The notes beneath the pieces were generated by a model that ran no database searches, was not told the DNA's origin, and saw nothing but the letters and a program-made list of their open reading frames with translations. Positions 32,026-55,475 of a stretch of 64,000 nt of DNA are shown piece after piece. The stretch spans positions 1,054,001 to 1,118,000 of the forward strand of contig CP134604.1 of the NCBI GenBank assembly GCA_021555105.2, in the 5' to 3' direction. The number at the start of each line of letters is the position of its first letter. Within the stretch, counting starts at the first letter, position 1. Source of the DNA: Thalassospiraceae bacterium LMO-JJ14 (GTDB lineage: Bacteria; Pseudomonadota; Alphaproteobacteria; Rhodospirillales; Casp-alpha2). Made by a program: the position numbers and the translations under genes.

Positions 32026-33057
32026 CTATTGCGGCGGCGGTGCCGTGGTGCCGCGGACCATGATGTCGGTCGGCAGTTCGTTGCGGGGCTCGGGCATCTC
32101 GCCGGCAATACAGTCAAGAAGGTACTCGGCGGCGCGTTCGCCCATGCGGCGGCTCGGGACATGCACCGTGGTCAGGCCCGGCGACAGGTGCTCGGCCAGC
32201 GGCAGATCGTCGAAGCCGACGATGGAAACATCCTCGGGGACCCGGATGCCGAGGTGCTGGGCTTCCAAGATGGCGCCGACGGCAAGCACATCGTTGCCGC
32301 AGAAGATACCGCTCGGGCGGTGTTTTTTCGGCAACCGCATCAGGGTGCGAAAGGCATCGCGGCCTTCGCTGACTTCGTAAGGTTTTTCGATCAACGCGTC
32401 AGGCGCCAGCTCGATGCCGCGGGCATGCAAGGCCGTCCTGACGCCGATGACGCGTTCGCGTGCCCGGTCGTTGCTGTCGCCAAGGCCGGCGATGACGCCG
32501 ATCCGCTTGTGGCCGAGATCAAGAAGGTGCTCGGTGATGCGCCGTGCCGCCCCCGGATTGTCGAAGCCGACGCAGGGATATGCGGCATCGGGGGCATAGG
32601 TCCATGTGGTGACGAACGGGCAGTCCTGGCGCGACAGCATGGTCAGGGTGTCGGCGTTATGCTGGCTGCCGACCAGAATCATGCCGTCGACACCGCGTTC
32701 GATCAATGCCTGCACCTGTTCGTATTCATGATCCAGATCGTAATTGGTGACTGCCAGCAAAAGGGTGTAACGGGCTTCTGTCAGTCGGTTTTCGACGGCA
32801 TTGACGCCGCTGGCGAAAATTGCGCTCTCAAGGGTCGGGATGACGGCGCCGATGGTGTGCGAGCGTGCCGACGCCAGTGCCCGTGCCGCACCGTGGCGGA
32901 CATAACCAAGGGCGCGGATCTGCGTCTCGACCCGTTCGCGCAGGATAGGGCGCACATCGGCGGGGCTGTTCAGCACCCGCGACACCGTTGCCGTCGAGAC
33001 GCCGGCGGCGGTGGCGATATCCTGCAGGTTGGGGGTGTTCGGATGCTTGTCCGGCAT
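32026..33057 (-). CDS. LacI-family transcriptional regulator
   Basis: A 343-residue repressor. The HTH and hinge (LQDIATAAGVSTATVSRVLNSPADVRPILRERV, residues 10-42) are followed by a periplasmic-binding-like effector domain (about 62-330). The ATG at 33057 (MPDKHPNTPNLQDIA) is chosen because the HTH must be N-terminal. It is divergent from the TRAP/HisD-like operon and a canonical LacI-type palindrome lies between, so it very likely represses that operon and itself. Inducer unknown, probably the transported substrate. Confidence 0.93.
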   Translation of the reverse strand: MPDKHPNTPNLQDIATAAGVSTATVSRVLNSPADVRPILRERVETQIRALGYVRHGAARALASARSHTIGAVIPTLESAIFASGVNAVENRLTEARYTLLLAVTNYDLDHEYEQVQALIERGVDGMILVGSQHNADTLTMLSRQDCPFVTTWTYAPDAAYPCVGFDNPGAARRITEHLLDLGHKRIGVIAGLGDSNDRARERVIGVRTALHARGIELAPDALIEKPYEVSEGRDAFRTLMRLPKKHRPSGIFCGNDVLAVGAILEAQHLGIRVPEDVSIVGFDDLPLAEHLSPGLTTVHVPSRRMGERAAEYLLDCIAGEMPEPRNELPTDIMVRGTTAPPPQ

Positions 33058-33121: not shown

Positions 33122-33135
33122 TGTAAGCGCTTACA
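33122..33135. promoter_or_regulatory. LacI-family operator palindrome
   Basis: TGTAAGCGCTTACA is a perfect 14-bp palindrome with the central CG typical of LacI/GalR-family sites. It is 64 bp upstream of the LacI gene start in the divergent region, an autoregulatory position. Confidence 0.8.
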
Positions 33136-33468: not shown

Positions 33469-34587
33469 ATGTTTCGTGTAAGTAAAACCATCAAGGGGCT
33501 TTGCGCTGCCGCGCTCGCGGTTGCCTTTGTCTCGGCGCCCGGCATTGCCGACGCAAAGACCAAAATCCGCGTTCAGTCGGTGATCCCGGCTAAGGCCGAC
33601 GAAGTCTTCATGTTGAACGATTTCGCAAAGGACGTGAAGGCTTTGACGAGCGGCTCGCTTGAAATCGAAGTGTTGCCCGCTGGGGCCGTCGTGGGTGTTA
33701 AAGAAACCCTCGACGCCGTTGATAGCGGTTTGATCGAAGGCGGGTTCGCATGGACTCACTACTGGTCCGGTAAGCACCCGGCGGCCATGCTGTTCGGCTC
33801 GCCGGTTGCAGGTGCCGGTGTCGGCATCGACAACATCGCCTTCGTTTCCTGGTTCCAGTACGGCGGCGGTAAAGAGCTGTACGACCAACTCTGGAAAGAA
33901 ATGGGCGTCAATGTGAAGGGCTTCATGCTGCAGCCGGTCGGTCCGGAAGCGCTCGGCTGGTTCAAAGAGCCGATCAATTCCATGGACGACTTCCGCAAGT
34001 ACCGCTTCCGCACGCCGCCGGGCATTCCGGGTCAGACCTACAAAGACATCGGTGTTGCCTCCGTCGCCATGGGTGGCGGGGATATTCTGCCGGCGCTTGA
34101 AAAAGGCACGATCGATGCTGCCGAGTGGTGCTGCCCGAAACCGGACAGCGTGTTCGGCTTCCAGAAAGTGCTCAAGCACTACTATCTGCAAGGCCTGCAC
34201 CAGGTCGTCGTGAACGCCGACATGTATATCAATGGCGACGTTTACAACAAACTCTCGGCTCTCGAGAAGAAAGCCCTCGAAGTTGCAGCCAATGCATCGC
34301 TCTCGAAGGCTATGTCTTATCGGATCTACGAGAACGGCAAGGCCCTCAAGGACCTGACCGAAAATCACGGCGTGCAGCTTCATGATACCCCGGCCGACTA
34401 TTTCCCGGCGTACATGAACGCGGCGAAAGCTGCCCTCGAGAAGAATGCGGCCGAGAACGCATTCTTCGCCAAAGTCTGGCAAAGCCAGAAGGATTTCGCA
34501 GCGATCGCGGTTCCTTTCTGGGCTGGTGCCCAAGCGTCAAATGCGAGCCTGGGTAAGGCGTTCGCAGACAGCGTGAAAAAGAAGTAA
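33469..34587 (+). CDS. TRAP transporter substrate-binding protein (DctP family), candidate sulfopropanediol binding
   Basis: A 372-residue periplasmic protein. A Sec signal peptide (MFRVSKTIKGLCAAALAVAFVSAPGIADA) precedes KTKIRVQSVIPAKADEVFMLNDF. The conserved DctP features include the FRTPPGIPG arginine region that coordinates acidic substrates and the AEWCCPKPDSVFGFQ segment. Preceded by GGAGGAGAC. It is the first gene of the operon with the fused permease, HisD-like enzyme, USP, SDR and ADH. Given the hps-like neighbours, an organic sulfonate such as DHPS is a likely ligand, but this is inference. Confidence 0.92.
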   Translation: MFRVSKTIKGLCAAALAVAFVSAPGIADAKTKIRVQSVIPAKADEVFMLNDFAKDVKALTSGSLEIEVLPAGAVVGVKETLDAVDSGLIEGGFAWTHYWSGKHPAAMLFGSPVAGAGVGIDNIAFVSWFQYGGGKELYDQLWKEMGVNVKGFMLQPVGPEALGWFKEPINSMDDFRKYRFRTPPGIPGQTYKDIGVASVAMGGGDILPALEKGTIDAAEWCCPKPDSVFGFQKVLKHYYLQGLHQVVVNADMYINGDVYNKLSALEKKALEVAANASLSKAMSYRIYENGKALKDLTENHGVQLHDTPADYFPAYMNAAKAALEKNAAENAFFAKVWQSQKDFAAIAVPFWAGAQASNASLGKAFADSVKKK

Positions 34588-34599
34588 GACCAAATTGGG

Positions 34600-34632
34600 A
34601 GGCGGGGCCGTCAAGGCCCCGCCTTTCTCTTT
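34600..34632 (+). terminator. Rho-independent terminator/attenuator between dctP and dctQM
   Basis: AGGCGGGGCC (34600-34609) and GGCCCCGCCT (34615-34624) form a perfect 10-bp GC stem with a 5-nt loop, followed by TTCTCTTT. It sits 13 bp after the binding-protein stop, so most transcripts may end here, giving more binding protein than permease. Confidence 0.85.
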
Positions 34633-34678
34633 AAACATTTCAAAATGATAACGCCGAATTTATCGGGTGGGGGGCATC

Positions 34679-36997
34679 ATGGCCGACAAAGTCGAGATGG
34701 ATAAACTTGATACGACGGACGAATTGATCGCCGAAGCGCGCACGGAAGCGCCGGGCGAGACGCCGGAAGACATGACGCCCTGGCAGCGCCCGATCACGGC
34801 CTCCATTGATGTTCTCAACCTGTGGGTAGGCCGCATCATCTGCGTTCTGATGATCCCATTGGTTTTGGCCATTGTTTACGAAGTTTTCTCGCGCAATGCG
34901 TTCGCGGTATTGACAGAGATGGACATGAACGACGTGGCCATTTCGTGGGGACTTGGTCCGACTTTATGGGTTTACGATATCAGCCGAATGCTGGGCGGCG
35001 TCATATTTATGGCAGCGTCCGGTTACGCATTGATGCGCGGTGTTCATATTCGCGCCGACTTCTTGTATCGAAACTGGTCCCCCAAGACGCAGGCGACCGT
35101 CGATGCAACGCTGTATTTGGCACTCTATATTCCTGCAATGTTGTTCTTTACCTGGGTCTCGGCGGAGTACTGGTACAAGGCATTTGCCATCGGTGAACAA
35201 GCGAGTGACTCGACGTGGGCGCCGATCTTATGGCCGGCCCGTCTTGCGATGCCGGTGGGCGGTTTTCTGCTTCTTTTGCAAGGCTTCCCGGAACTGTTTC
35301 GCGCATTCCATAAAATGGGCAAGGAACGCGAACGGCTCTTCCTGCGCGTACTCCCTCTTTATGGCGTTGCCTTGCTTGTGTTGGTCGGTGCGGTGTTCTT
35401 CCCCGATGTTGTGCCAATCACAGACTGGTGGAACGAAACGTTTAACCACGAGGGACAGGTCGACATTTCTAAACCGGTAATCGGCCTCATCATGCTCGCG
35501 GTGATGCTGTTCTCGATCTTCGTCGGTTTTCCGATTTCCTTCACCCTCATTTTCCTCGGGTTCGCCTTTGGGACTTGGGGTGCGAACTTCAAACTCGCCA
35601 CATTCCTTATGGCCCTGCAAACCAATTCCGTGATGCTGAGCGACCAGTTGGTTGCGGTTCCGCTCTTCATCTTGATGGGGATTGTGATGGAGAAAGCCGG
35701 ATTGATGGAACGTTTGTTCCAGGCCGTTCAAATGATGATGAGCCGGACAAGGGGCGCGCTATTCATCGCCATCCTGTTCGTGTCGACCATCTTCGCGGCC
35801 GCAACGGGCATCGTCGGCGCATCGGTCACGATCCTCGGGATCATGGCTGCGCGCACGATGAACCGCTCTGGGTATGATGTGAAACTCGCCGCAGGGACGA
35901 TCACAGCGGGCGGGACGCTCGGTATTCTGATCCCGCCTTCGATCATGTTGATTGTCATGGGGCCGGTCCTCGAGGTGCCTGTCACGGATTTGTTCCGCGC
36001 GGCGATCATCCCCGGCATCATGCTCGCGGGGCTCTACATGCTGTATGCGCTCGGACGGTGTTTCATCAATCCAAGCCTCGGCCCCATTCTGCCGCCGGAC
36101 GAGCAGCCTGAAACGTCCAGCTTCTATCTGCTCGAAGTGGCGATGGTTATGGGCGCGCTCGTCTTCCTGATCTGGCTGATCACGCATGGGATAACGAACG
36201 GCTTCGGCTTCCCCATGGGTGCGTTGATTGTTCCGTTCGCCTGGATTGGCGTGATGTGGGCCGTCTATAGGTGGCTCGGGAAAACACGCCCCGGTGGCTT
36301 CTATTTCTCGGACCTTTGGTACGAGTTTTTCATGGGCCTCGTGCCGCCGACCGTGCTCATCGCATTTGCGCTGGGCTCAATCCTTGCCGGTTGGGCGACA
36401 CCTGCCGAAGCTTCGGCCTGCGGCGCATTCGGTGCGGTGCTTCTATCCATGCTTTATGGCAAGTTTTCGATCGAGGAGCTTTATAGCGCTTTGATCAAAA
36501 GCCTGGAGATCACGGTTCTGATCATGTTCCTGGTGGCGGCGTCGAACTTCTTTGGGGCCGTGTTCTCGAACCTCGGTACGCCAACGATGCTGACAGAGCT
36601 TCTACTGACGCTCGATATGTCGCCCGTTTTTATTCTGATCTTGATCATGGCGTTGATCTTCCTGCTCGGATGGCCGCTGGAATGGGTGCCGATCGTCCTT
36701 ATTATCGTTCCCATCCTGGTCCCGACGGTAACGTCGCTTGATCTTGGATTTGAGAACCAGAACGACTTGTTGATCTGGTTCGCGATACTTGTCGCTGTCA
36801 ATTTGCAAACGGCATGGCTGAGCCCACCCGTTGCGCTTTCCGCATACTTCCTGAAGGGCGTTGTCCCGGAGTGGGACCTGCGCGATATCTATTTGGGAAT
36901 GATGCAGTTCATGGTGATCCAGCTGATTGGGCTCACGTTGATCTTCGTGTTCCCGCAAATTGCCTTGTGGCTTCCTAACTATATTTACGGAAATTAG
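34679..36997 (+). CDS. Fused TRAP transporter permease (DctQM)
   Basis: A 772-residue membrane protein joining the small and large TRAP subunits. After a charged cytosolic N-terminus (about 1-45) comes a DctQ-like part (about 45-260), then a DctM part with many helices: GIVMEKAGLMERLFQAVQMMMSRTRGALF, ILFVSTIFAAATGIVGASVTILG, GGTLGILIPPSIMLIVMGPVLEVPVTDLFRAAIIPG. The last third has the family's NLGTPTMLTELLL block. The ATG at 34679 follows GGTGGGGGGC. Fusion of Q and M into one chain is a known TRAP variant. Transports the substrate of the preceding binding protein. Confidence 0.93.
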   Translation: MADKVEMDKLDTTDELIAEARTEAPGETPEDMTPWQRPITASIDVLNLWVGRIICVLMIPLVLAIVYEVFSRNAFAVLTEMDMNDVAISWGLGPTLWVYDISRMLGGVIFMAASGYALMRGVHIRADFLYRNWSPKTQATVDATLYLALYIPAMLFFTWVSAEYWYKAFAIGEQASDSTWAPILWPARLAMPVGGFLLLLQGFPELFRAFHKMGKERERLFLRVLPLYGVALLVLVGAVFFPDVVPITDWWNETFNHEGQVDISKPVIGLIMLAVMLFSIFVGFPISFTLIFLGFAFGTWGANFKLATFLMALQTNSVMLSDQLVAVPLFILMGIVMEKAGLMERLFQAVQMMMSRTRGALFIAILFVSTIFAAATGIVGASVTILGIMAARTMNRSGYDVKLAAGTITAGGTLGILIPPSIMLIVMGPVLEVPVTDLFRAAIIPGIMLAGLYMLYALGRCFINPSLGPILPPDEQPETSSFYLLEVAMVMGALVFLIWLITHGITNGFGFPMGALIVPFAWIGVMWAVYRWLGKTRPGGFYFSDLWYEFFMGLVPPTVLIAFALGSILAGWATPAEASACGAFGAVLLSMLYGKFSIEELYSALIKSLEITVLIMFLVAASNFFGAVFSNLGTPTMLTELLLTLDMSPVFILILIMALIFLLGWPLEWVPIVLIIVPILVPTVTSLDLGFENQNDLLIWFAILVAVNLQTAWLSPPVALSAYFLKGVVPEWDLRDIYLGMMQFMVIQLIGLTLIFVFPQIALWLPNYIYGN

Positions 36998-37071
36998 GGG
37001 GCGTGAGTGACGTATACCATTCGATTGGATGAGCTTCTCGTCTGTCGGCACTTACAAGAGGACCAGGAAAA

Positions 37072-38379
37072 ATGACCCGCGAGTACCTTAAGAAAGCCAC
37101 GTTGACATCGCGCTCGGATTCTAGCGAAACGGCTGAAATCGTTTCCACGATCCTTGCCGAGATTGAAGCGGGCGGTGAAGAAAAAGCGCTCGAGTATGCC
37201 GCGAAGTTCGATAAGTACGAGGGCAATATCGTACTGTCGCCAGAAGAGATCGAAGCCGCGGGGGCAAAGCTTCCGCAAAAGCTTAAGGACGATATTCTCT
37301 TTGCTTACGACAACGTCCGCCGGTTCGCGGAAGCCCAAAAGAACACGGTTGCGGATTTCGAGTACGAGATAAATGAGGGACTGATTGCCGGACAAAAAGC
37401 GATACCGGTATCCGCCGCCGGCTGTTACGTGCCGGCGGGGCGGTACCGCCATATCGCCAGCGCCATCATGACGGTGACGACGGCTGCTGTCGCCGGGTGC
37501 CAGCATATTTCGGTTTGTTCCGCGCCTCAGCCTGAAACGGGCGTCGATCCGGGGGTCGCTTATGCGGCGCATGTTTGCGGCGCGGATACGATTATGGCCA
37601 TCGGCGGAGTGCAGGCTGTGGCGTCCATGGCGTTCGGCTTGTTCGGACAGCCCAAGGCGAACATCATTGTCGGTCCGGGCAATCAGTTTGTCGCTGAGGC
37701 AAAGCGCATGCTGTATGGCCGTGTCGGCATCGACATGATCGCCGGTCCGACGGACAGCTTGATCCTGGCCGACAAGGATGCCGATGCCCATATCGTTGCC
37801 ACCGATCTCGTTAGCCAGGCGGAGCACGGTTACAACTCACCGGTTTGGCTGGTTACCGACCATCGGCCGTTGGCTGAGGATGTCATGGCCCGTGTGCCGG
37901 ACCTTATCGCTGACCTGCCGGAACTCAACCGTGGGAATGCAGAAGCGGCATGGCGCGATTATGCCGAGGTGATTGTCTGTTCAGACCGCGAGGAAATGGC
38001 CAGAACGTCGGACGAATATGCGCCGGAGCATCTGACCGTTCAGGCGGATGATCTGGATTGGTGGCTGGGTCGGTTACAATGTTATGGGTCGCTGTTTCTC
38101 GGCGAAGAAACCACTGTCTCTTATGGGGACAAGGCTTCCGGGACCAACCATGTTCTGCCAACCTCGGGAGCAGCCACGTATACGGGCGGCCTCAGTGTCC
38201 ACAAGTATATGAAGATCGTGACCTGGCAACGGGCCACCCGCGAAGGCGCCAAGAAAGTTGCCGAAGCGACCGCGCGGATTTCGAGACTGGAAGGGATGGA
38301 AGGCCATGCACGGGCTGCGGATGTCAGGCTTGCCAAGTACTTCCCAGGTGAAAACTTCGACCTTACAGCCAAAGGATAG
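37072..38379 (+). CDS. hpsN: Histidinol-dehydrogenase-family enzyme, likely sulfopropanediol 3-dehydrogenase (HpsN type)
   Basis: A 435-residue HisD-fold zinc dehydrogenase. Zinc and catalytic residues are conserved: Q249 and H252 (SQAEHG), E319-H320 (APEHL), D353 (YGDKASGTNHVLPTSG) and H412 (EGMEGH). The C-terminus LEGMEGHARAADVRLAKYFP and the AAGCYVPAGRYRHIASAIMTVTTA core are, from memory, closer to the HpsN group than to biosynthetic HisD. It sits in a TRAP/USP/SDR/ADH operon under LacI control, not a his operon. HpsN oxidises R-2,3-dihydroxypropane-1-sulfonate to sulfolactate with NAD. Function is inferred; a different 1,2-diol or amino alcohol is possible. Confidence 0.7.
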   Translation: MTREYLKKATLTSRSDSSETAEIVSTILAEIEAGGEEKALEYAAKFDKYEGNIVLSPEEIEAAGAKLPQKLKDDILFAYDNVRRFAEAQKNTVADFEYEINEGLIAGQKAIPVSAAGCYVPAGRYRHIASAIMTVTTAAVAGCQHISVCSAPQPETGVDPGVAYAAHVCGADTIMAIGGVQAVASMAFGLFGQPKANIIVGPGNQFVAEAKRMLYGRVGIDMIAGPTDSLILADKDADAHIVATDLVSQAEHGYNSPVWLVTDHRPLAEDVMARVPDLIADLPELNRGNAEAAWRDYAEVIVCSDREEMARTSDEYAPEHLTVQADDLDWWLGRLQCYGSLFLGEETTVSYGDKASGTNHVLPTSGAATYTGGLSVHKYMKIVTWQRATREGAKKVAEATARISRLEGMEGHARAADVRLAKYFPGENFDLTAKG

Positions 38380-38415
38380 TTTGGCGTAGGGCACGGAAAA
38401 TCAAAGGGAGCAACG

Positions 38416-38826
38416 ATGTATCAAAAGGTCCTAGTACCCATGGCATTGGACCATGGAATTTCACCACAGACTTTGGAGATCGCCCGGGCACTTTTGTCGC
38501 CGGGAGGGTCGATCGTCGCCCTGCATGTATTCGAGGTGCCGAAGGGTTCGGTCTCCGCCTATGTTGGTGACGATGTCATCCAAAAGGGTTTCGATAAGGC
38601 AGCCGAGATTTTGCGGGAGAAGGTCTCTCATCTTGACGGTGTCGTCACAGACATCATTCGCGGAGAAGCCCATCGCAAGATCATCGATTACGCCGTCGAG
38701 CATGGTTGTGATTGTATCGTCATCGGGTCCCATAAACCGGATATCACTGACTACTTTATCGGTTCGACCGCCGCGCGGGTGGTCAGGCACGCGCCCTGCG
38801 CAGTCCATGTGCATCGCGACTCCTGA
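38416..38826 (+). CDS. Universal stress protein (UspA family)
   Basis: A 136-residue USP-fold protein (MYQKVLVPMALDH...). The ATP-binding tail is DCIVIGSHKPDITDYFIGSTAARVVRHAPCAVHV, the GxxxxxxxxxGS/T motif of nucleotide-binding USPs. USP domains are often encoded beside TRAP transporters (for example TeaD with TeaABC) and are thought to tune uptake. It lies 36 bp after the HpsN-like gene, in the same operon. Confidence 0.92.
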   Translation: MYQKVLVPMALDHGISPQTLEIARALLSPGGSIVALHVFEVPKGSVSAYVGDDVIQKGFDKAAEILREKVSHLDGVVTDIIRGEAHRKIIDYAVEHGCDCIVIGSHKPDITDYFIGSTAARVVRHAPCAVHVHRDS

Positions 38827-38901
38827 CGGTGTGGCAGGATCGGTGATTGCACCTGGCTGAAGCGTTGCTGGCTGAAATAGTCTTACGTCATCCTTGAAGG
38901 G

Positions 38902-39684
38902 ATGGGATTGGAAAAACGACCTATGCCGTCGCAATTTGATCTTACTGGTTCTGTCGCTCTGGTCACCGGCGCATCTTCCGGCATCGGCCGGCGCATGGCC
39001 GGTGCGCTGGCGGGGGCCGGTGCCAAGGTGATACTTGCCGGTCGGAACGAAGCGCGTCTTGGCGAGGCGCAGGCGTCGATTACAGAGGCAGGCGGCGCGG
39101 CAGAGACCGTGACCGCCGACCTGAACGACAAGGCCGTCATCGACGATCTGTATGCCCGCGCCACCGCACCGTTCGGGGCGCCGACGATCCTCGTCAATGC
39201 GGCGGGCATAAACCTGCGTGAACCGTGGGCCGAGATCAGCATGGAAAGTTGGGACAGGACCATTCACCTGAACCTGAGCGTGCCGTTTTTCCTGGCCCGC
39301 GCCTGTGTGCCGGGGATGGCCGATAAGGGCTATGGCCGGATCATCAACATCGCATCGCTGCAAAGCTACCGGGCGTTTGCCAACTCCATGCCGTATGGCG
39401 CGTCGAAGGGCGGGGTCGTGCAATTGACCCGCGCCATGGCCGAAGCGTGGTCGAAGGATAAAATCAACGCCAACGCCGTTGCCCCCGGGTTTTTTCCGAC
39501 CGAGCTGACTCAGGCGGTTTTCAACAATCCGCAACTCGTCGCGCACAATGCGAAAATGACGGCCATCGGGCGCAACGGCGAACTCGCGGACCTTGACGGC
39601 ATAACGGTATTTCTGGCCTCGCCCGCGTCGGCCTACATCACCGGCCAGACGATCCCCGTCGACGGCGGCTTTACCGCCAAGTAG
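38902..39684 (+). CDS. SDR, possible HpsO-type sulfopropanediol 2-dehydrogenase
   Basis: A 260-residue classical SDR: TGASSGIG at the N-terminus, NAAGINLREP, SLQSYRAFANSMPYGASK with catalytic serine, tyrosine and lysine, and ITGQTIPVDGGF. It resembles the gluconate 5-dehydrogenase subgroup. The start may be 38902 or ATG 38923 (MPSQFDLTG, closer to the family start). In hps-type clusters, an SDR and an ADH act as 2-dehydrogenases that interconvert the DHPS enantiomers; this gene and the next fit those two slots. That role is inferred from context only. Confidence 0.85.
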   Translation: MGLEKRPMPSQFDLTGSVALVTGASSGIGRRMAGALAGAGAKVILAGRNEARLGEAQASITEAGGAAETVTADLNDKAVIDDLYARATAPFGAPTILVNAAGINLREPWAEISMESWDRTIHLNLSVPFFLARACVPGMADKGYGRIINIASLQSYRAFANSMPYGASKGGVVQLTRAMAEAWSKDKINANAVAPGFFPTELTQAVFNNPQLVAHNAKMTAIGRNGELADLDGITVFLASPASAYITGQTIPVDGGFTAK

Positions 39685-39693
39685 GAGGCTTCG

Positions 39694-40698
39694 ATGAAAG
39701 CACTCGTCTATACCGGTCCGAAACAGATCGTCTTTCAGGATTCCCCGGACCCCGAAGCCGAAGCAGGCGATGTCCTGATCGAGGTCGGTGCGGTCGGCAT
39801 TTGCGGATCGGACATGCATGCCTATCTCGGTCATGACGAGCGCCGTCCGGCGCCGCTGATCCTGGGACACGAGGCCGCGGGCGTGGTCCGTGGCGGCATG
39901 CATGACGGCAAGCGCGTGGTCGTCAATCCGCTGGTGACATGCGGGGTGTGCCGCGATTGTCTGTCGGGCCGCGAGAACCTGTGCGCCAAGCGGGAAATCA
40001 TCTCGATGCCGCCACGCCAGGGCGCGTTCGCCGAAAAGATCGTGATCCCGGCGCGCAACATGATCGAGGTGCCGGAAAATCTCGACCTGACCCATGCCGC
40101 GCTGGCCGAGCCGCTGGCGACGTCGTGGCACGGGGTGGCGCTGGCCGACCGTCACGCGGCGAGGCCGCTGGCCGAAGCCCGTGCACTGGTCATGGGATCG
40201 GGGGCCGTCGGGCTGGGGGCGGCACTGGCGCTCAGGGCCTTCGGCTGCTCAGACGTGACGGTTGGCGAAACCAACGAATTGCGCCGCAAGACGGCCTTCT
40301 CGCAGGGCTTCGACAAGGTCGTCGATCCCACTGTTGACGGCGCGCTGGATGCGGGCTTCGCCGATGTCGTCATCGATGCGGTGGGCAACAAGCATACCCG
40401 CGCCGCGGCGGTGCGTTCGGCCCGGCCCGGTTCGGTGATCGTGCATATCGGCTTGGGCGATGGGACCGACGGCTTCGATGCCCGGCGCGTAACGCTGCAG
40501 GAAATCACCTTCGTCGGCGCCTACACCTATACCATGACGGATTTTCGCGCCACGCTGGCGGCGATGGCGTCAGGCGCGCTCGGCGATCTCGACTGGATCG
40601 AGGCACGCGGCCTCGAAGACGGTATTCAGGCCTTCGACGACCTGCTCGAAGGCCGCACCGGGGCGGCCAAGATCATCCTCCACCCGGCTTCTTTGTAG
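39694..40698 (+). CDS. Zinc-dependent alcohol dehydrogenase, possible HpsP
   Basis: A 334-residue medium-chain dehydrogenase. Catalytic zinc ligands C37 (GICGSD), H59-E60 (GHE); structural zinc cysteines C83, C86, C89 and C97 (CGVCRDCLSGRENLC). The NAD-binding motif is GSGAVGLGAALALRA. It begins 9 bp after the SDR stop with AGGAGG before the ATG, so it ends the operon. It would be the second 2-dehydrogenase in a DHPS pathway (inference); other polyols are possible substrates. Confidence 0.9.
   Translation: MKALVYTGPKQIVFQDSPDPEAEAGDVLIEVGAVGICGSDMHAYLGHDERRPAPLILGHEAAGVVRGGMHDGKRVVVNPLVTCGVCRDCLSGRENLCAKREIISMPPRQGAFAEKIVIPARNMIEVPENLDLTHAALAEPLATSWHGVALADRHAARPLAEARALVMGSGAVGLGAALALRAFGCSDVTVGETNELRRKTAFSQGFDKVVDPTVDGALDAGFADVVIDAVGNKHTRAAAVRSARPGSVIVHIGLGDGTDGFDARRVTLQEITFVGAYTYTMTDFRATLAAMASGALGDLDWIEARGLEDGIQAFDDLLEGRTGAAKIILHPASL

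Positions 40699-53762: not shown

Positions 53763-53773
<11 letters not shown>
53459..53773 (+). CDS. ureB: Urease beta subunit
   Basis: A 104-residue Ure[47 protein letters not shown] is diagnostic, with [14 protein letters not shown] near the end. Starts 13 bp after ureA and overlaps ureC by 11 bp. Separate gamma, beta and alpha genes are the usual arrangement outside Helicobacter and fungi/plants. Confidence 0.97.

Positions 53774-55475
<1,702 letters not shown>

Follow-up and report, generated by a model that had tools for sequence, protein, structure and literature searches.

The six genes between positions 33469 and 40698 of the window, that is of the 64,000 nucleotides C1:1054001-1118000 of a single-contig 3.89-Mb genome, very probably make up an operon for the catabolism of DHPS, a reading well supported by sequence comparison, and the operon is of a type already described. 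DHPS is an abundant sulphur compound of algae and plants, and a major sulphur currency between algae and bacteria. What we add here is modest, and leaves the known pathway unchanged: a predicted operator, a fused transporter and a mosaic history. Well-supported DHPS use, as predicted from these genes, is thereby extended to a genus which, judged by its relatives, stands outside the Roseobacteraceae.

Layout of the operon and identity of its dehydrogenases

All six genes are on the plus strand, tightly spaced, and positioned as a preliminary description of this DNA had given them. An hpsK-like TRAP solute-binding protein (33469..34587; Pfam DctP) is followed by a fused DctQ-DctM TRAP permease, hpsLM (34667..36997), by the HisD-fold enzyme hpsN, a predicted R-DHPS 3-dehydrogenase (37072..38379), by an hpsQ-like universal stress protein or USP (38416..38826; Pfam Usp), and by two further predicted dehydrogenases, hpsO, of the SDR family and acting on R-DHPS (38902..39684), and hpsP, a zinc (MDR) enzyme acting on S-DHPS (39694..40698). 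An hpsR-like regulator of the LacI family (32026..33057; Pfam LacI and Peripla_BP_3; longest open reading frame to 33201) is transcribed divergently on the minus strand, outside the interval first delimited. TRAP genes and lacI thus adjoin the predicted dehydrogenases, and by gene content transporter and regulator belong to the locus. The similarity of HpsN to a solved DHPS enzyme, and the near-identical operons of two species of the genus, put this arrangement well outside what chance would produce. Neither a promoter nor a terminator is claimed, because shuffled sequences gave more promoter sites than the real sequence did, and a roughly equal number of terminators.

The combination of a TRAP transporter with HisD-fold, SDR and zinc alcohol dehydrogenases had been read from the outset as the hps gene set, and closest structures, diagnostic residues, trees and conserved neighbourhoods all bear this out. 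For each of the three dehydrogenases, the top solved structure is the matching Roseobacteraceae DHPS enzyme (8wwe, 8wwf and 8wwd for HpsN, HpsO and HpsP, respectively). It is worth considering at this point whether HpsN could be a second histidinol dehydrogenase, or belong to a catabolic operon using histidinol, as would be suggested by its strong matches to Pfam Histidinol_dh and to TIGR00069, which NCBIfam names histidinol dehydrogenase. This is hardly credible. Among all PDB sequences the best match of HpsN is the R-DHPS dehydrogenase 8wwe (E 1.9e-215) and the second the Cupriavidus enzyme CpHpsN (8v35; E 3.4e-157), against 2.2e-70 for the best histidinol dehydrogenase, 1k75, the other histidinol dehydrogenases being weaker still. 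The roles of the sulfonate-binding histidine and of other residues have been described (PMC11382572, PMC11131964). In the window enzyme H127 corresponds to the sulfonate-binding His126 of CpHpsN, at a position where the five histidinol dehydrogenases of our tree have a tyrosine; E319, H320, D353, K354 and H360 correspond to Glu318, His319, Asp352, Lys353 and His359, the numbering being shifted by one, and Ser226 is replaced by the threonine that is also present in the RpHpsN sequence. HpsN and HisD fall into separate clades (support 100/100), and the window HpsN has neither the tyrosine nor the phylogeny of the his type. Furthermore, the true hisD is elsewhere, at C1:1312214 (best match 4g07, E 2.7e-160; tyrosine at position 127), while the neighbours of the window gene are hpsO and hpsP, with no his genes. 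On PDB ranking, separate hisD, residue 127 and tree together we reject a histidine operon, as the preliminary description had done.

A further clade of HisD-fold proteins, 42-47% identical to HpsN, was observed in five relatives (G028, G035, G051, G038 and G048; loci L123-L126 and L128). Its members have a methionine where HpsN has the sulfonate-binding histidine and HisD the tyrosine, and keep the glutamate, the histidine, the aspartate and the HpsN-type lysine; by these residues, the clade is neither HpsN nor HisD.

In the case of HpsO the best solved structure, 8wwf (HpsO), is practically tied with 6le3, labelled gluconate 5-dehydrogenase. S152, Q154, Y165 and K169 correspond to S145, Q147, Y158 and K162 of RpHpsO, and this set, comprising the catalytic Ser, Tyr and Lys and the glutamine that binds the C2-OH, is kept in 30 of 30 aligned homologues. 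HpsP matches 8wwd with an E value of 8.9e-112, the next PDB chain reaching 3.3e-30; the PDB label of 8wwd says zinc-containing alcohol dehydrogenase only, but its accession series and residues suggest that it is DsHpsP, the HpsP of Dinoroseobacter described in PMC11131964. H59, E60 and E139 of HpsP are conserved, also in 31 of 31 aligned homologues. The initial statement that HpsN is accompanied by two 2-dehydrogenases therefore holds for the identity of the two enzymes and fails for their name: Roseobacteraceae HpsO and HpsP oxidize the C3-OH of R- and S-DHPS to sulfolactaldehyde (PMC11131964), so that the name '2-dehydrogenase' is to be dropped for that type. The USP gene, which had been held to lie outside the minimal set, is indeed present in the operon, yet it is not foreign to it. 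The Ruegeria pomeroyi locus SPO0590-0597 is annotated as hpsR (LacI), hpsK/L/M (TRAP), hpsN, hpsO, hpsP and hpsQ (UspA), hpsR being SPO0590 and hpsQ SPO0597 (PMC4334477), so that neither LacI nor USP is an addition and the system is not new. With a USP in 58 of the 80 hpsN loci that we retrieved, its presence in an hps operon is ordinary.

Downstream genes and the predicted pathway

As first described, the window has no sulfolactate-cleaving genes. They form a cluster, suyA-suyB-slcC-comC, some 1.6 Mb away at C1:2750515-2754136 (L014 7016-10637), with a divergent GntR regulator. Since they are unlinked to the window, the completeness of the pathway has to be judged from an inventory of the genome, and the search suggested at the outset for suyAB, slcCD/comC and xsc returned homologues of suyAB, slcC, comC and xsc; the complete lack of sulfolactate genes that would have spoken against the operon is not what the genome shows. 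It is homology, together with a gene order shared with the hps-suy loci of C. pinatubonensis and of Paracoccaceae, that places a putative SuyAB pathway in this genome; the names SuyB, SlcC and ComC follow from homology and context, no curated cut-off being passed, while SuyA, a candidate frame of 106 aa found by its position beside suyB, is so read from size, position and neighbours, neither a search with PF08666 (SAF) nor the Pfam models giving a match. SuyB has 65% identity with its counterpart encoded after the annotated hpsN-hpsO genes in C. pinatubonensis HN-2, and 72-73% with those adjoining hpsN-O-P on plasmids of Rhodobacteraceae SC52 and Paracoccus seriniphilus (suyAB adjoins hpsN-O-P on CP049030 and CP067132). 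Nearby suyAB genes also accompany hpsN at L042, L053, L069, L087 and L094 and in the relative G014 (L141), while the distance is about 18 kb in the relative G011 (L142). Among 61 relatives, 12 carry both hpsN and suyB, 7 and 7 only one of them, and 35 neither (Fisher p 5e-4, in a test that ignores kinship, uses thresholds set after the table was seen and counts one partial HpsN). Four further genomes of the genus keep the suyA-suyB-slcC-comC block together with cysI. Beyond the regulator (L014 11458-13618), the cluster is flanked by genes for a CysI-like sulfite reductase and a DUF934-type protein, an arrangement found in five genomes of the genus, our own included, which suggests that sulfite from sulfolactate may feed sulphur assimilation.

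Xsc is present (942 bits for a cut-off of 676); for the sulfopyruvate decarboxylase ComDE, which a sulfoacetaldehyde (Xsc) pathway would also need, there are three candidate pairs, all below the cut-off. We could not point to a dedicated sulfolactaldehyde dehydrogenase (GabD-2) in the genome: the best candidate is closest to the succinate-semialdehyde dehydrogenase of Escherichia coli, with 8c54, which we take to be the sulfolactaldehyde dehydrogenase RlGabD, ranking lower, and by these matches it looks like an ordinary enzyme of the SSADH type. Elsewhere, a second Xsc-like enzyme (L013 7651-10497; 678 bits against the cut-off of 676) lies beside a phosphate acetyl/butyryltransferase; the same region has a TauE/SafE exporter (L013 15842-16576), near a Rieske-type oxygenase and TRAP genes, and is perhaps devoted to another sulfonate pathway.

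The picture that emerges, in which we infer substrate, stereospecificity, direction of flux, inducer and repression, would run as follows. DHPS would be imported by the binding protein and the fused DctQM permease. HpsN would convert R-DHPS into R-sulfolactate in a four-electron, NAD+- and metal-dependent oxidation, HpsO would produce sulfolactaldehyde from R-DHPS and HpsP from S-DHPS, and an aldehyde dehydrogenase would take sulfolactaldehyde to sulfolactate. The operon would be repressed by the LacI-type HpsR, probably bound to TGTAAGCGCTTACA as long as neither DHPS nor a product frees it.

Two other accounts of the same genes deserve attention. An operon built in this way might serve another hydroxy-sulfonate or a small anionic polyol, DHPS not being the physiological substrate. 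The specificity of the binding protein is indeed unreadable from its sequence, its closest solved relative being SmoM, of the sorbitol/mannitol type, and the clade with methionine at position 127 illustrates that the HisD-like family does diverge. However, the published DHPS residues that we compared are kept in HpsN, HpsO and HpsP, with the sole exception of the threonine that RpHpsN shares, suyAB is directly linked to hpsN-O-P in several genomes, and the binding-protein family tracks hpsN, all of which makes a different substrate quite unlikely. That the operon is a decayed remnant, as the distance to suyAB could suggest, is most improbable: every reading frame is intact, two species of the same genus have a near-identical operon with the whole gene order kept and HpsN 98-99% conserved, the suy block is conserved as well, and unlinked sulfolyases are common among carriers of hpsN (PMC11382572). 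DHPS catabolism thus remains the preferred reading.

The regulator, its predicted operator and the fused transporter

The likely start of the LacI protein is codon 49 of its 391-aa frame, directly before the helix-turn-helix. About 65 bp upstream of this start lies TGTAAGCGCTTACA (33122..33135, listed without a strand), a perfect palindrome of 14 bp; the entire 3.89-Mb genome has no other site within one mismatch of it. Among 75 lacI homologues from hps loci, the 520-bp start region of 50 contains an exact copy, and that of 67 a copy with one mismatch or none; of 1500 random stretches from the same loci 42 reach this level, and some of these 42 include part of the genuine site. This conservation holds although identity to the window LacI is only 41-48% for most of the 75 proteins. 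The palindrome resembles the general consensus of the LacI family, so that the argument is carried by its conservation and single occurrence and not by the motif itself. We therefore regard TGTAAGCGCTTACA as very probably the operator of LacI (HpsR), on comparative grounds; the LacI control proposed initially is thus matched by a divergent hpsR-like gene with a conserved predicted operator, of use for regulon prediction.

The permease, as noted at the start, is a DctQM fusion, both Pfam domains (DctQ 65-214, DctM 278-765) lying in one frame of 776 aa. The full-length fused protein is found in 14 hpsN loci, that of the window included, and in other genomes hps loci encode homologues of the binding protein that are 72-89% identical. 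Of 241 genomes sampled evenly from the class, taking E <= 1e-100 as the mark of a carrier, five have this binding-protein type, all five among the 20 with hpsN; when our own genome is left out, the four remaining carriers all have hpsN, against a background of 19 in 240 (about 3e-5, hypergeometric, by hand). The two genes are less than 5 kb apart in four of the five carriers, own genome included. We can therefore understand the fused DctQM system as a recurrent alternative to hpsKLM rather than a peculiarity of this genome: as far as gene linkage indicates, this TRAP subtype is tied to DHPS, being linked to hpsN in other alphaproteobacteria. Searches of the openly accessible literature returned no earlier account of this fused TRAP type or of the operator. 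A further membrane protein, of the DUF475/TerC type (PF04332), lies between the fused permease and hpsN at L025 (8926-9972), and a gap of DUF475 size occupies the same place in the fused-TRAP loci L021-L024, L042 and L083, unlike the window and its genus, which have none. It is a possible extra part of the transport system.

Probable mosaic history and related loci

The operon appears, from these comparisons, to be phylogenetically mosaic: hpsN is nested within the Roseobacteraceae and the transporter is like theirs, while hpsO and hpsP do not share that grouping. In the tree the window HpsN lies inside the Roseobacteraceae, with the fused-TRAP group (support 100/98); the tests reject trees that group it with the HpsN of its own family (AU p 2e-4) or with the 75% identical HpsN of two other members of the genus (1.6e-5). 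The binding protein and the permease are 74-89% and 63-86% identical, respectively, to their homologues at Roseobacteraceae loci, these being identities, not trees. HpsO and HpsP, by contrast, mostly share more identity with relatives from this organism's family or order (58-67%) than with Roseobacteraceae (52-62%). For these two enzymes the tests reject a position like that of HpsN, within the fused-TRAP Roseobacteraceae (p < 1e-80), but not one beside the Roseobacteraceae taken as a whole (AU p 0.12 and 0.28). Likewise, LacI is closer to that of relatives of the same family or order (49-59%) than to that of most Roseobacteraceae hps loci (41-48%).

The simplest reading is that of a contiguous foreign block between native flanks. 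We give about an even chance to a displacement in place, by which a Roseobacteraceae block (binding protein, DctQM, hpsN and perhaps the USP) would have replaced a native transporter and hpsN between the native regulator and the native hpsO-hpsP pair, the fused TRAP system then being a second class of DHPS transporter, one that spreads horizontally. Such a block would also explain why the USP gene lies between hpsN and hpsO, as in the Oceanicola locus L025. Transfer in the reverse direction, or displacement of hpsO-hpsP instead, would be less parsimonious. Two other genomes of the genus (G004 and G006; L139 and L140) have another hpsN, 75% identical, beside a TRAP permease of a different type and a USP, and no hpsO or hpsP homologues were found on these stretches, which suggests an independent acquisition.

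Comparison with known systems places the operon among them. Ruegeria pomeroyi DSS-3 hpsRKLMNOPQ (SPO0590-0597; PMC4334477, PMC11131964) has in common with it the LacI HpsR, a TRAP transporter, HpsN, HpsO, HpsP and the UspA-type HpsQ, and the R. pomeroyi strain of L079 has an HpsN 79% identical and the same predicted operator; in the window, however, the permease is a single DctQ-DctM protein belonging to another TRAP subtype, the USP gene separates hpsN from hpsO, and identity in hpsO and hpsP is only about 56%. The hps-suy locus of Cupriavidus pinatubonensis shares LacI, hpsN (56% identical), hpsO, an hpsP-like dehydrogenase and suyAB, but has an MFS transporter and adjacent suyAB where our organism has a TRAP system and unlinked suyAB. 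The Shimia, Aliiroseovarius, Oceanicola and Marinovum loci (L021-L025 and L042) have the same type of binding protein (74-81%), the fused DctQM (63-65%) and HpsN (81-86%), and at L025 hpsN and USP are adjacent as in the window; their hpsO and hpsP, not found in L025, are of the Roseobacteraceae type. The unlinked suy cluster, for its part, presumably has the gene content of the slcC-comC-suyAB cluster of Chromohalobacter salexigens, a likening by content and not by sequence.

Elsewhere in the window, the Rfam family 5_ureB_sRNA (RF02514) scores 128.6 bits at 53916-54204 on the minus strand, in antisense to the beginning of what we take to be ureC (a 570-aa frame, 53763-55475); conservation of the coding sequence, and not a genuine antisense RNA, may account for the match.
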